Below are positions 15,473 through 34,953 of a DNA stretch of 64,000 nucleotides, in pieces; positions within the stretch are counted from its first letter, which is position 1; every line of letters starts with the position of its first letter. The stretch covers positions 1,535,226 to 1,599,225 of the forward strand of contig CP059069.1 in NCBI GenBank assembly GCA_017798145.1. The letters are read 5' to 3'. The notes beneath the pieces were generated by a model. The model saw only the letters and a list, made by a program, of their open reading frames with translations. It was not told the DNA's origin and searched no databases. The stretch comes from Akkermansiaceae bacterium (lineage in GTDB: Bacteria; Verrucomicrobiota; Verrucomicrobiia; Verrucomicrobiales; Akkermansiaceae). The position numbers and the translations under genes were made by a program.

Positions 15473-15837
15473 GGCAGGGACGTTTGTCTCCAAACGTCCA
15501 TATCTGACGGCCTTAGAGATCCCATCGGCTCCTTTCCGTGAAAACCGCCGCGAGATATGGACGGCAAGGATTGCCGTCCCTGCCTGTTTCACGCGCCCGG
15601 GCAGGGACGTTTGTCCCCAACGTCCATATCTGACGGCCTGGGTGATCCCATCGGCTCCTTTCCGTGAAAACCGCCGCGAGATATGGACGGCAAGGATTGC
15701 CGTCCCTGCCTGCTTCACGCGCCCGGGCAGGGACGTTTGTCCCCAAACGTCCATATCTGACGGCCTGGCTGATCCCATCGGTTCCTTTCCGTGAAAACCG
15801 CTGCGAGATATGGACGGCAAGGATTGCCGTCCCTGCC
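15473..15837. repeat. Composite palindromic repeat array A (three units, reversed orientation)
   Basis: Three units at 15473-15583, 15599-15710 and 15726-15837, spaced 126-127 bp. Each runs from GGCAGGGACG to CGTCCCTGCC and contains a hairpin GGACGTTTG/CAAACGTCC, an arm pair CCATATCT/AGATATGG and a second hairpin GGACGGCAA/TTGCCGTCC. The order of the hairpins is opposite to all other arrays, so this array is inverted. It fills the gap between the subunit-3 gene and the first prepilin-like gene. Confidence 0.9.
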
Positions 15838-20631: not shown

Positions 20632-20978
20632 GGCAGGGACGGTCTTTGTCGTTTGCCATCTCCGCTTCGCTCCGGTTCCAAGCCGTTCATATCTCGCAGC
20701 GGTTCCCACAGGCAGGGACGGTCTTTGCCGTTGGCCATCTCCGCTTCGCTCCGGTTCCGAGCCGTCCAGATCTCGCAGCGCTCTTCACGGAAAAGAACCG
20801 ATGGGATCACCAGGCCCTGAGATATGGACGTTTTGGAAAAACGTCCCTGCCTGGGCGCGTTCAACAGGCAGGGACGGTCTCTCCGAGTCGTCCATATCTC
20901 GCAGCGCTCTTCACGGAAAAGAACCGATGGGATGGATCAGGCCGTCAGATATGGACGTTTTGGAAAAACGTCCCTGCC
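20632..20978. repeat. Composite palindromic repeat array B (two full units and a partial one)
   Basis: A partial unit starts at 20632; full units lie at 20711-20851 and 20867-20978. The first two contain an extra insertion in the first hairpin loop (TCTCCGCTTCGCTCCGGTTC), making the second unit 141 bp. The last has the GGACGGTCTC-type first hairpin and the GGACGTTTT/AAAACGTCC second hairpin. Orientation is opposite to array A. It separates the divergent glycosidase and prepilin-like genes. Confidence 0.88.
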
Positions 20979-30070: not shown

Positions 30071-30156
30071 ATCGGGTTTGGTTCTTGGATTTGTTCGGGA
30101 GCCTTGCATGTGAGGCTTTACGCACTTGATCAAACCAAAAACGGTAAGCGCGCGAT

Positions 30157-30175
30157 AGTCCCCAAAGTGATGACA
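30157..30175 (-). promoter_or_regulatory. Recurrent GTCATCACTTTGGGGAC-type motif, site 7
   Basis: Minus strand TGTCATCACTTTGGGGACT, 87 bp upstream of the PEP-CTERM start and pointing toward it. Array C begins 1 bp beyond it. Confidence 0.5.
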
Positions 30176-30176
30176 A

Positions 30177-31086
30177 GGCAGGGACGGTCTCTCCGAGCCG
30201 TCCATATCTCACGGCGGTTTTTCACGGAAAGGAACCGTTGGGATCCCCCAAGCCGTGAGATATGGACGTTTTGGGAAAAACGTCCCTGCCGTTCCCGCAG
30301 GCAGGGACGGCAATCCTTGCCGTCCATATCTAGCGGCGGTTCATACGGAAAGGAACCGATGGGATCCCCAAAGCCGTCAGATATGGACGTTTTGGGAAAA
30401 ACGTCCCTGCCGTTCCCGCAGGCAGGGACGGCAATCCTTGCCGTCCATATCTCGCGGCGCTTCATACGAAAAGGAACCGATGGGATCCCCCAAGCCGTCA
30501 GATATGGACGTTTTGGGAAAAACGTCCCTGCCTAGGCGCATTCCACGGGCAGGGACGGCAATCCTTGCCGTCCATATCTCGCGGCGCTTCATACGAAAAG
30601 GAACCGATGGGATCCCCCAAGCCGTCAGATATGGACGTTTTGGGAAAAACGTCCCTGCCTGGGCGCGTTCCGCAGGCAGGGACGGCAATCCTTGCCGTCC
30701 ATATCTCGCGGCGCTTCACACGGAAAGCAACCGTTGGGATCCCCCAAGCCGTCAGATATGGACGTTTTTGGGAAAATGTCCCTGCCTAGGCGCATTCCAC
30801 GGGCAGGGACGGCAATCCTTGCCGTCCATATCTCGCGGCGCTTCACACGGAAAGCAACCGTTGGGATCTCACGAGCCGCCAGATATGGACGTTTTGGGAA
30901 AAACGTCCCTGCCCGGGGGCGTTCCGCGGGCAGGGACGGCAATCCTTGCCGTCCATATCTCGCGGCGCTTCATACGGAGAGGGACCGATGGGATCTCACT
31001 GGCCGCCAGATATGGACGTTTTGGGAAAAACGTCCCTGCCCGGGCGCGTTCTGCAGGCAGGGACGGCAATCCTTGCCGTCCATACC
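30177..31086. repeat. Composite palindromic repeat array C (seven full units and a half unit)
   Basis: Unit starts at 30177, 30300, 30421, 30548, 30675, 30802, 30929 and 31056; the last five steps are exactly 127 bp. Each full unit (112-114 bp) is bounded by GGCAGGGACG and CGTCCCTGCC and contains a first hairpin (GGACGGCAA/TTGCCGTCC; the first unit has the GGACGGTCTC variant), the long-range arm CCATATCT/AGATATGG, and a second hairpin (GGACGTTTT/AAAACGTCC). Linkers between units are 9-15 bp. The final half unit stops at the DUF1080 stop codon. This array fills the whole 1 kb between the two minus-strand genes. Confidence 0.95.
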
Positions 31087-31842: not shown

Positions 31843-31860
31843 GTCCACAAAGTGATGACA
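31843..31860 (-). promoter_or_regulatory. Recurrent GTCATCACTTTGGGGAC-type motif, site 8
   Basis: Minus strand TGTCATCACTTTGTGGAC (one mismatch), 58 bp upstream of the DUF1080 start and pointing toward it. Confidence 0.45.
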
Positions 31861-31875
31861 GCCAGATCTGGCCAA

Positions 31876-31987
31876 GGCAGGGACGGCAATCCTTGCCGTC
31901 CATATCTCGCGGCGGTTCACACGGAAAGGAACCGATGGGATCACCCAAGCCGCCAGATATGGACGTTTTGGGAAAAACGTCCCTGCC
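31876..31987. repeat. Single composite palindromic unit next to the RAYT pseudogene
   Basis: One complete 112-bp unit in the same orientation as arrays B-E, with GGACGGCAA/TTGCCGTCC and GGACGTTTT/AAAACGTCC hairpins. It ends 11 bp from the end of the RAYT pseudogene. Confidence 0.92.
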
Positions 31988-31997
31988 GGGACATTGC

Positions 31998-32473
31998 CTA
32001 CCAACCCCTTGTCCCATCACCCCGCAAAACATAAGGCCATTTCTCGAATGAATCCACGAGACCGCCACGCACAGGATTTTCACGGATGTAATCCCATTTG
32101 TCGGTCATGTCGGAATCCCCCCTGACCCTGTGGTCGAAATAATCCCTCTGCCACTCGGTCCCGAACGTCTTCGCCGTGTATCGTTTCCAGCTCTTGATGA
32201 GATTCCCCATCCCAAGGCCTTTGTCGTTGTTGAAGGAGATCAGGCATGGAAATGATCCGGCATGAGCAGCGCGAGGAAGACATGCCATTTGCCGAGATCC
32301 TGGTAGAAGCTCAATGCATCGAGCAATCCCTCAGCCACCCCGGGCAGCGTGAGCTGCGGTTCGCCGCGTTTTTGGCAATTGATCGTGATGAAGAAAACCG
32401 CGTTCTCCGGTGCCCATGACGGCGGGCGGTGAAAGTCACCCCTTGCTTTCCGTTTTGAAAATTCCTCCGCCAA
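31998..32473 (-). pseudogene. REP-associated tyrosine transposase (RAYT, Y1_Tnp), frameshifted
   Basis: Two overlapping minus-strand frames together give one IS200/Y1-like transposase. The first (start 32473) reads PENAVFFITINCQKRGEP and LALLMPDHFHA, containing the HxH metal site (HFH). The second reads LISFNNDKGLGMGNLIKSWK, TEWQRDYFDHRVRGDSD and WDYIRENPVRGGLV, where the Tyr of DYIRENPV is the expected nucleophile. One missing C near 32241-32243, just after HFHA, breaks the frame and creates a TGA. All catalytic residues are otherwise present, so the loss is recent. It lies between a single repeat unit (11 bp away) and array D (47 bp away), the arrangement known for REP/RAYT pairs, which mobilise or maintain the palindromes in trans. 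Confidence 0.85.
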
Positions 32474-32519
32474 ACCAAGGCAAATTGCGGATCAACGGTG
32501 CCAGAAGGTCAAACCAAAA

Positions 32520-33007
32520 GGCAGGGACGGCAATCCTTGCCGTCCATATCTCGCAGCGGTTTTCACGGAAAGGAACCGATGGGATCACCCAGGCCGCCAG
32601 ATATGGACGTTTTGGGAAAAATGCCCCTGCCGTTCCCGCAGGCAGGGACGGTCTCTCCGAGCCGTCCATATCTCACGGCGCTTCACACGGAAAGGAACCG
32701 TTGGGATCACCCGGGCCGTCAGATATGGACGTTTTGGGAAAAACGTCCCTGCCCGGGCGCGTCCCACGGGCAGGGACGGCAATCCTTGCCGTCCATATCT
32801 CGCGGCGCTTCACACGGAAAGGAACCGATGGGATCACCCAGGCCGCCAGATATGGACGTTTTGGGAAAAACGTCCCTGCCCGGGCGCGTCCCACGGGCAG
32901 GGACGGCAATCCTTGCCGTCCATATCTCGCGGCGCTTCACACGGAAAGGAACCGATGGGATCTCACGGGCCGCCAGATATGGACGTTTTGGGAAAAACGT
33001 CCCTGCC
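32520..33007. repeat. Composite palindromic repeat array D (four units)
   Basis: Units at 32520-32631, 32641-32753, 32769-32880 and 32896-33007, spaced 121-128 bp, in the same orientation as array C. The second unit has the GGACGGTCTC-type first hairpin; the others GGACGGCAA/TTGCCGTCC. The array starts upstream of the RAYT start codon and ends 42 bp before the motif at 33049. Confidence 0.93.
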
Positions 33008-33048
33008 TGGGCGCAATTCCATCCGCAGGATAAACCGGATATCGCAAC

Positions 33049-33067
33049 AGTCCCCAAAGCGATGACA
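33049..33067 (-). promoter_or_regulatory. Recurrent GTCATCACTTTGGGGAC-type motif, site 9
   Basis: Minus strand TGTCATCGCTTTGGGGACT. It points away from the sulfatase at 33154 and toward array D and the RAYT pseudogene, so it is one of two sites not pointing at a nearby intact gene. Confidence 0.45.
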
Positions 33068-34728: not shown

Positions 34729-34731
34729 CCC

Positions 34732-34902
34732 GAATGGCACGGGATTAAGCCGTCTTTCGTGAAATAGGCAGGGACGACAATCCTTGTCGTCCATATCTCG
34801 CGGAGCTTCGCGCGGAAAGGAACCGATGGGATCCCACAAGCCGTCAGATATGGACGTTTTGGAAAAACGTCCCTGCCTTCTTGGCTTAATCCCGTGCCAT
34901 TC
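34732..34902. repeat. Repeat element E inside a perfect 20-bp inverted repeat
   Basis: A single composite unit (34767-34877) has the first hairpin GGACGACAA/TTGTCGTCC, a compensated change from the usual GGACGGCAA/TTGCCGTCC. It is enclosed by a perfect 20-bp inverted repeat (34732-34751, GAATGGCACGGGATTAAGCC, pairing with 34883-34902). CGAACTGACC also occurs as a direct repeat outside both arms (34721, 34903). The structure occupies the gap between two convergent genes and could stop transcription from both sides. Confidence 0.85.
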
Positions 34903-34953
34903 CGAACTGACCCCCGATGCCGGCATCCCGGAGCCCGTGACTGCCGGAAACCG

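Follow-up and report, generated by a model that had tools for sequence, protein, structure and literature searches.

A frameshifted RAYT gene among GCAG-tagged REPIN arrays in an Akkermansiaceae genome

Introduction

When a transposase gene lies broken among tandem palindromes, were these repeats its own substrates, by what feature did it recognize them, and is the system still at work? These questions are raised by a locus in a 64,000-nucleotide stretch of an Akkermansiaceae bacterium (contig CP059069.1), hereafter called the window, where a frameshifted gene for a REP-associated tyrosine transposase (RAYT), a tyrosine nuclease of the Y1/HUH type, stands between arrays of units about 112 bp long. 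The tetranucleotide at the foot of the REP is one of the features by which RAYTs differ from ordinary IS200/IS605 transposases, and the RAYT clade described here bears on how this tag determines where the DNA is cut. With a probability of roughly nine in ten, we read the locus as a REPtron, that is, a RAYT gene with its own REPINs clustered around it, whose units were spread by the RAYT and are now probably no longer multiplying. The kind of system is already known, and REPtrons are common in Verrucomicrobiota; what is unusual is the GCAG tag of this clade, as against GTAG or GTGG in its relatives. If true, the switch from GTAG to GCAG would mean that specificity for a hallmark recognition element has changed in nature, and a single tag change with intact enzymes on either side would provide natural pairs in which to find the residues that read the tag. 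Moreover, tag searches limited to GT[AG]G overlook whole REP families.

Architecture and Distribution of the Units

Each unit consists of two REPs of about 26 nt in inverted, head-to-head orientation, laid out as GGCAG, a 9-bp hairpin (GGACGGCAAtccTTGCCGTCC), a spacer, a second hairpin (GGACGTTTTgggAAAAACGTCC) and CTGCC. The outer arms pair with each other, as do the ATATCT and AGATAT ends of the spacer. Folded as DNA, the unit reaches -37.6 kcal/mol (z = -6.6; none of 200 shuffles did as well) in a cloverleaf of four helices, namely an outer stem, two small hairpins and a middle stem, and the two-hairpin form, drawn by hand, comes to -17.3; the three stems of the first-pass annotation are corrected accordingly. 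The pairing is also borne by the variation among copies, with 97.8% of pair cells in the helices standard over 20 distinct copies and 12 double, compensatory changes against 1.9 in shuffles, a signal that is lost when the helix partners are slid by 1-3 columns. The window contains 15 occurrences of the head motif, shuffles none. All 24 units of the genome (111-143 bp) show an inverted pair of REPs which, together with the spacer between them, can form a single hairpin, and the window holds only one lone REP. The supposed 112-bp three-stem unit is an ordinary REPIN, an arrangement already known (PMC3116915), and its length, once taken to distinguish it from repeats of 20-40 bp, does not do so, 112 bp being the size of a REPIN with two REPs of about 26 nt and 20-40 bp that of a single REP. 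The REPINs of Pseudomonas fluorescens SBW25 (Bertels and Rainey, 2011; PMC3116915) likewise combine two inverted REPs and a spacer into a hairpin and form tandem clusters with compensatory changes beside a RAYT, and a "clover" fold was proposed for them too; they differ in REP sequence, the tag here being GCAG, and in abundance, with hundreds of spread copies in SBW25 as opposed to 24 concentrated around the gene.

Table 1. Features of the locus and of the methionine synthase gene discussed below (window positions unless marked as genome or contig coordinates).
Feature	Position	Strand	Remarks
RAYT pseudogene (Y1/HUH tyrosine nuclease)	31998-32473	-	two overlapping frames, one frameshift between them
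RAYT pseudogene, 5' part	frame 32240-32473	-	HUH motif, MPDHFHA, then stop
RAYT pseudogene, 3' part	frame 31998-32288	-	WQRDYFDHR; catalytic Tyr in DYIRENPV
REPIN unit (GCAG-tagged REP dimer, head-to-head)	31876-31987	+	10 bp from RAYT 3' end
Four-unit tandem REPIN array	32520-33007 (32520-32631, 32641-32753, 32769-32880, 32896-33007)	+	46 bp from RAYT 5' end
Seven-unit tandem REPIN array	30177-31040 (30177-30290, 30300-30411, 30421-30532, 30548-30659, 30675-30786, 30802-30913, 30929-31040)	+	period mostly 127 bp
Solitary left REP (half unit)	31056-31081	+	closes the seven-unit array
Isolated REPIN unit	34767-34877	+	nested in TIR element
Two REPIN units	20711-20978 (20711-20851, 20867-20978)	+	longer left hairpin in the first
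Three REPIN units	15473-15837 (15473-15584, 15600-15710, 15726-15837)	-	
TIR element, 172 bp	34731-34903	unassigned	21-bp terminal inverted repeats (CGAATGGCACGGGATTAAGCC); carries a REPIN
MetH (B12-dependent methionine synthase) with RAYT-like insert	L208:3212-6661; genome 1142711-1146160	-	also L217-L239

The single unit and the four-unit array beside the gene lie where the first-pass annotation had placed them, except that the gaps to the gene are 10 and 46 bp rather than 11 and 47 bp, and the larger array at which its title hinted comprises seven units and a lone REP (30177-31081). In the genome as a whole, a single contig of 4.39 Mb, 18 of the 24 units are found within 17 kb of the RAYT gene, a clustering whose p of 2e-33 under independent uniform placement is overstated because the members of an array are not independent. 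The six remote copies have sharp ends in flanks that are unrelated except for one pair within TIR elements; they are dispersed in the genome as units, as REPINs are, and their sharp ends in unrelated flanks support the excision and insertion by the RAYT that is proposed below. An 18-bp sequence (GTCCCCAAAGTGATGACA) recurs at 30151-30176, 31843-31860 and 33043-33067, at the outer array edges and before the single unit, and may mark duplicated segments of the RAYT locus.

The element with terminal inverted repeats (TIRs) that encloses the isolated unit of the window is one of three copies, 172-183 bp in size, two of which, the one in the window included, have a GCAG REPIN inside: the second REPIN-carrying copy lies at genome 1960123-1960295, and a third copy (genome 1726282-1726464) holds other cargo. 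Some copies border GGGGTCAG, which agrees with GGGGWSAS, a motif that goes with TIR-associated tyrosine transposases, and no form of the element free of cargo was found by an exact gap pattern. The remote unit at 1960149 may have travelled as cargo of such an element, a possibility that speaks against spread by the RAYT.

The RAYT Gene and Its Break

The catalytic residues, HFH and the tyrosine of DYIRENPV, are invariant among relatives and are split over the two halves of the pseudogene, between which a 1-nt frame change stands immediately behind the HUH motif; the frames thus bear out the first-pass annotation, which had described a RAYT with both sites, broken just after the HxH site. For profile searches the two frames were joined into one protein, with X marking the break. 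This protein passes NF047646, the NCBI model of REP-associated tyrosine transposases, with 83.7 bits (cut-off 80; the intact relative L107 reaches 88.7 bits), and stays below the cut-off of 23 bits for Pfam Y1_Tnp, at 14.4 bits. An intact gene in genome G166 (L026/L107) shares 68-70% identity with it, the differences being mostly silent; dN to L107 is 0.23 and 0.16 for the two halves, with dS saturated. Since both halves are about equally conserved, the break is either recent or a sequencing error. Programmed frameshifting was set aside, the slippery heptamer being absent at the break.

That the living organism has an intact, active gene, the one-base frameshift having arisen in sequencing or assembly, we regard as unlikely. 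The catalytic residues kept in both halves, the mostly silent differences from G166 and the presence of one indel only are all compatible with such an error, but the genome is a single contig of 98.5% completeness in which long neighboring genes read through, and the site of the frameshift lies outside any long homopolymer. The earlier suggestion that the system stopped recently is plausible, its basis being a single indel for which sequencing may be to blame.

Association of Gene and Units Across Genomes

Relatives of the window RAYT are carried by 14 other genomes of the family, at 47-68% identity over most of the length and nearly all intact; 13 fall in the GCAG clade and one (G184) has a sister GTAG gene. 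A search of viral contigs yielded no relative. A search with a covariance model built from the units of this genome alone detected units beside most of these relatives, and reading of the flanks located them on both sides of 13/13 GCAG-clade RAYTs in other genomes, with the unit architecture and termini constant and the hairpin sequences varying from genome to genome. Among 260 genomes of the family, units were scored in 10 of the 14 with a clade RAYT (a count that includes this genome) versus 10 of the 246 without (Fisher p = 5e-10), and on deeper search of selected genomes 12 of the 14 with a clade RAYT carry them. Both the two-sided units and this enrichment uphold the original proposal that RAYT and units belong together, and the check it proposed, whether intact RAYT genes are always flanked by the unit, comes out positive for all 13 clade relatives, in the same architecture with diverged hairpins. 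The observations named at the outset as breaking the link give a mixed result. G122 has about 16 units and no clade RAYT, but is an 89% complete draft in 190 contigs, which fits either loss of the RAYT or an assembly gap, and a few other drafts also have units and no clade RAYT. RAYTs flanked by a different palindrome do exist, but belong to other clades with REP families of their own. Four relatives (G118, G164, G108 and G159) were compared at the RAYT locus in search of an empty site; synteny was broken or divergence too great, and in G118, the only one readable there, the neighborhood is rearranged.

The same comparisons weigh upon the alternative that the units are MITEs, or terminator or RNA-stability elements, unrelated to a RAYT that merely sits among them. 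Either strand of the units does fold well, and units can be carried along by the 172-bp TIR element, but their two-sided architecture recurs at 13/13 clade RAYTs elsewhere with sequences diverged between genomes, their tag follows the RAYT clade, and RAYT-bearing genomes are strongly enriched for them, such that we consider an unrelated origin very improbable and retain the units as REPINs of this RAYT.

The GCAG Tag and Its Origin

The class is defined in surveys by GT[AG]G, with a degenerate GYAG mentioned in some families (PMC6006769; PMC3733652). The units described here lack GTAG or GTGG at the 5' hairpin foot and carry the variant GCAG instead. To place this variant, we scored the flanks of each RAYT gene for G[CT][AG]G tetranucleotides that stand at hairpin feet, with a far-flank control; arm-pair counting that did not demand a hairpin was abandoned, its tag calls being noisy where flanks are GC-rich. 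Two genes (L112 and L115), for each of which the script found fewer than two matches, were called GCAG by eye. The RAYT tree has 82 rows (80 relatives from named genomes and two more, with the window gene and an outgroup), nearly all of them Verrucomicrobiota records, short or broken rows being left out. Its 14 GCAG rows form one clade (SH-aLRT 93) and amount to one change, alongside 38 GTAG rows and 12 GTGG rows. Counting any GNNG tag with a hairpin, GCAG occurs in the flanks of GCAG-clade genes at 3.76/kb within 600 bp of the gene versus 0.06/kb at 1.5-2.4 kb, and GTAG near the gene at 0.00/kb; around all other RAYTs, GCAG stands at 0.01/kb and GTAG at 1.92/kb near the gene versus 0.15/kb farther out. 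On the evidence of these sequences, GCAG reads as a variant REP tag with a single origin on the RAYT tree. All tag classes share an invariant extra G before the tag (GGCAG, GGTAG, GGTGG) and an enriched A preceding it, and a conserved cleavage dinucleotide beside the tag, sought across the classes, was not found. Ten of the GTGG rows make up a second clustered tag change (L152, L162, L169, L170, L172, L175 and L179-L182). A literature search for GCAG, RAYT and palindromic together as whole words returned no paper, a weak negative given partial journal coverage.

The intact relative L107 matches E. coli TnpA_REP (4er8, the structure of a RAYT bound to a REP hairpin) by sequence (E 1.3e-5), and its AlphaFold2 model (pLDDT 89) has 4er8 as the best fold match (E 4e-9). 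The E. coli REPtron resembles the present one in protein family, fold and the presence of REPs on both sides of the gene, and differs in that its REPs are tagged GTAG rather than GCAG, the two enzymes being about 23% identical in the structural alignment (PMC8266576). Equivalents of E. coli W94, Q95 and R104, which lie in the GTAG-reading region (PMC6006769), are conserved in both the GCAG and GTAG classes. Shortly behind the GTAG-contacting region, which ends at R104, the position of E. coli D108 is Asp in 14/14 GCAG-clade RAYTs versus 0/67 others; E. coli TnpA_REP itself has D at 108, yet reads GTAG. A loop Gly, at position 87 of L107, is likewise fixed only in the GCAG clade. Such clade-only residues, the Asp among them, are sequence-based candidates for tag specificity, and since GCAG has a single origin, specificity changes are inseparable from shared descent.

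Did this Akkermansiaceae/Verrucomicrobiaceae clade, then, switch its tag from GTAG to GCAG once, via changes in the enzyme? We put this at even odds. It is also possible, though in our estimate doubtful, that GCAG is not read by the RAYT and reflects drift in a tolerated base, fixed by descent of the REP family together with its gene. The single origin, by which tag and enzyme changes are confounded, is consistent with drift, as is the finding that mutation of GTAG does not abolish binding by TnpA_REP of S. maltophilia (PMC8266576). Against drift, a GCAG substrate was barely cleaved by that same enzyme in vitro (PMC8266576), and GCAG has been kept in 13 diverged genomes while the adjacent hairpin sequences turned over.

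The nearest described systems carry other tags. The GTAG REP families of Verrucomicrobia, for example in Opitutus terrae (PMC3733652), come from the same phylum and likewise feature foot-tagged palindromes and inverted dimers; those covered in the accessible part of that survey are GTAG or GTGG, with a degenerate GYAG in some, and it names there neither a GCAG family nor a linked RAYT clade. In the REPtrons Ma and Mb of Marinomonas sp. MWYL1 (PMC8266576), REPs are similarly concentrated near the tnpA_REP gene, but the tag is GTAG, the hairpin shapes are different and the enzyme is intact.

Proposed Mechanism and Present State

Cutting and rejoining of REPs as single-stranded DNA is known for the E. 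coli, S. maltophilia and Marinomonas enzymes (PMC8266576), and by analogy we infer binding, cutting and single-strand transposition of the units by the RAYT. A unit in single-stranded DNA (e.g., the lagging-strand template) can take the form of either a cloverleaf or a pair of hairpins; the RAYT, a HUH nuclease with one tyrosine, would bind each hairpin with its GCAG foot, cut beside it, excise the unit as single-stranded DNA and rejoin it elsewhere, and the units would multiply while the RAYT gene itself stays put. The broken RAYT is a domesticated single-strand transposase among hairpin repeats that it most likely once copied about the genome.

The search for RAYT homologues and the unit count that the first-pass annotation had proposed for this genome gave 24 units and no second GCAG-clade RAYT, the other Y1 genes being distant. 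Because the RAYT is frameshifted and the genome has no intact clade homologue, the 24 units are probably not multiplying and the system is probably dead. The idea that an intact copy elsewhere may still act accordingly fails within this genome, which has no other clade RAYT, and holds for other species, where intact genes are present. A different function, for instance at RNA 3' ends, could also account for the retention of the units.

Other RAYT-Like Genes and Domains

An intact RAYT-like gene of another subclass (L002/L209, genome 1444500-1449500) has its own flanking repeat (CAAGGAGCGGCGCGCCCTATGGCCGCCGGATAAG), unrelated to the unit. A RAYT-like domain, again of another subclass (HUH PNHVH and Tyr), lies complete and in frame inside the activation domain of MetH (Table 1). 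Matched by a query spanning both junctions, this insert is end-to-end and stop-free in at least 21 of the 73 genus genomes, the present one included, and five others have the right-hand MetH part alone, in a frame of ~920 aa that is apparently insert-free. The domain looks like a long-kept, intein-like passenger without known removal, and a literature search found no paper joining RAYT and methionine synthase. With host enzymes recognized by eye in the translated sequences, in-frame RAYT domains were also seen in other essential enzymes of relatives, namely IspG (L241, L243, L245 and L246) and LeuRS (L193), and a GTAG-type domain is fused to MnmG (L168). A second insertion site in MetH is occupied in L242 and L244, and in L245 a single IspG contains two RAYT domains.
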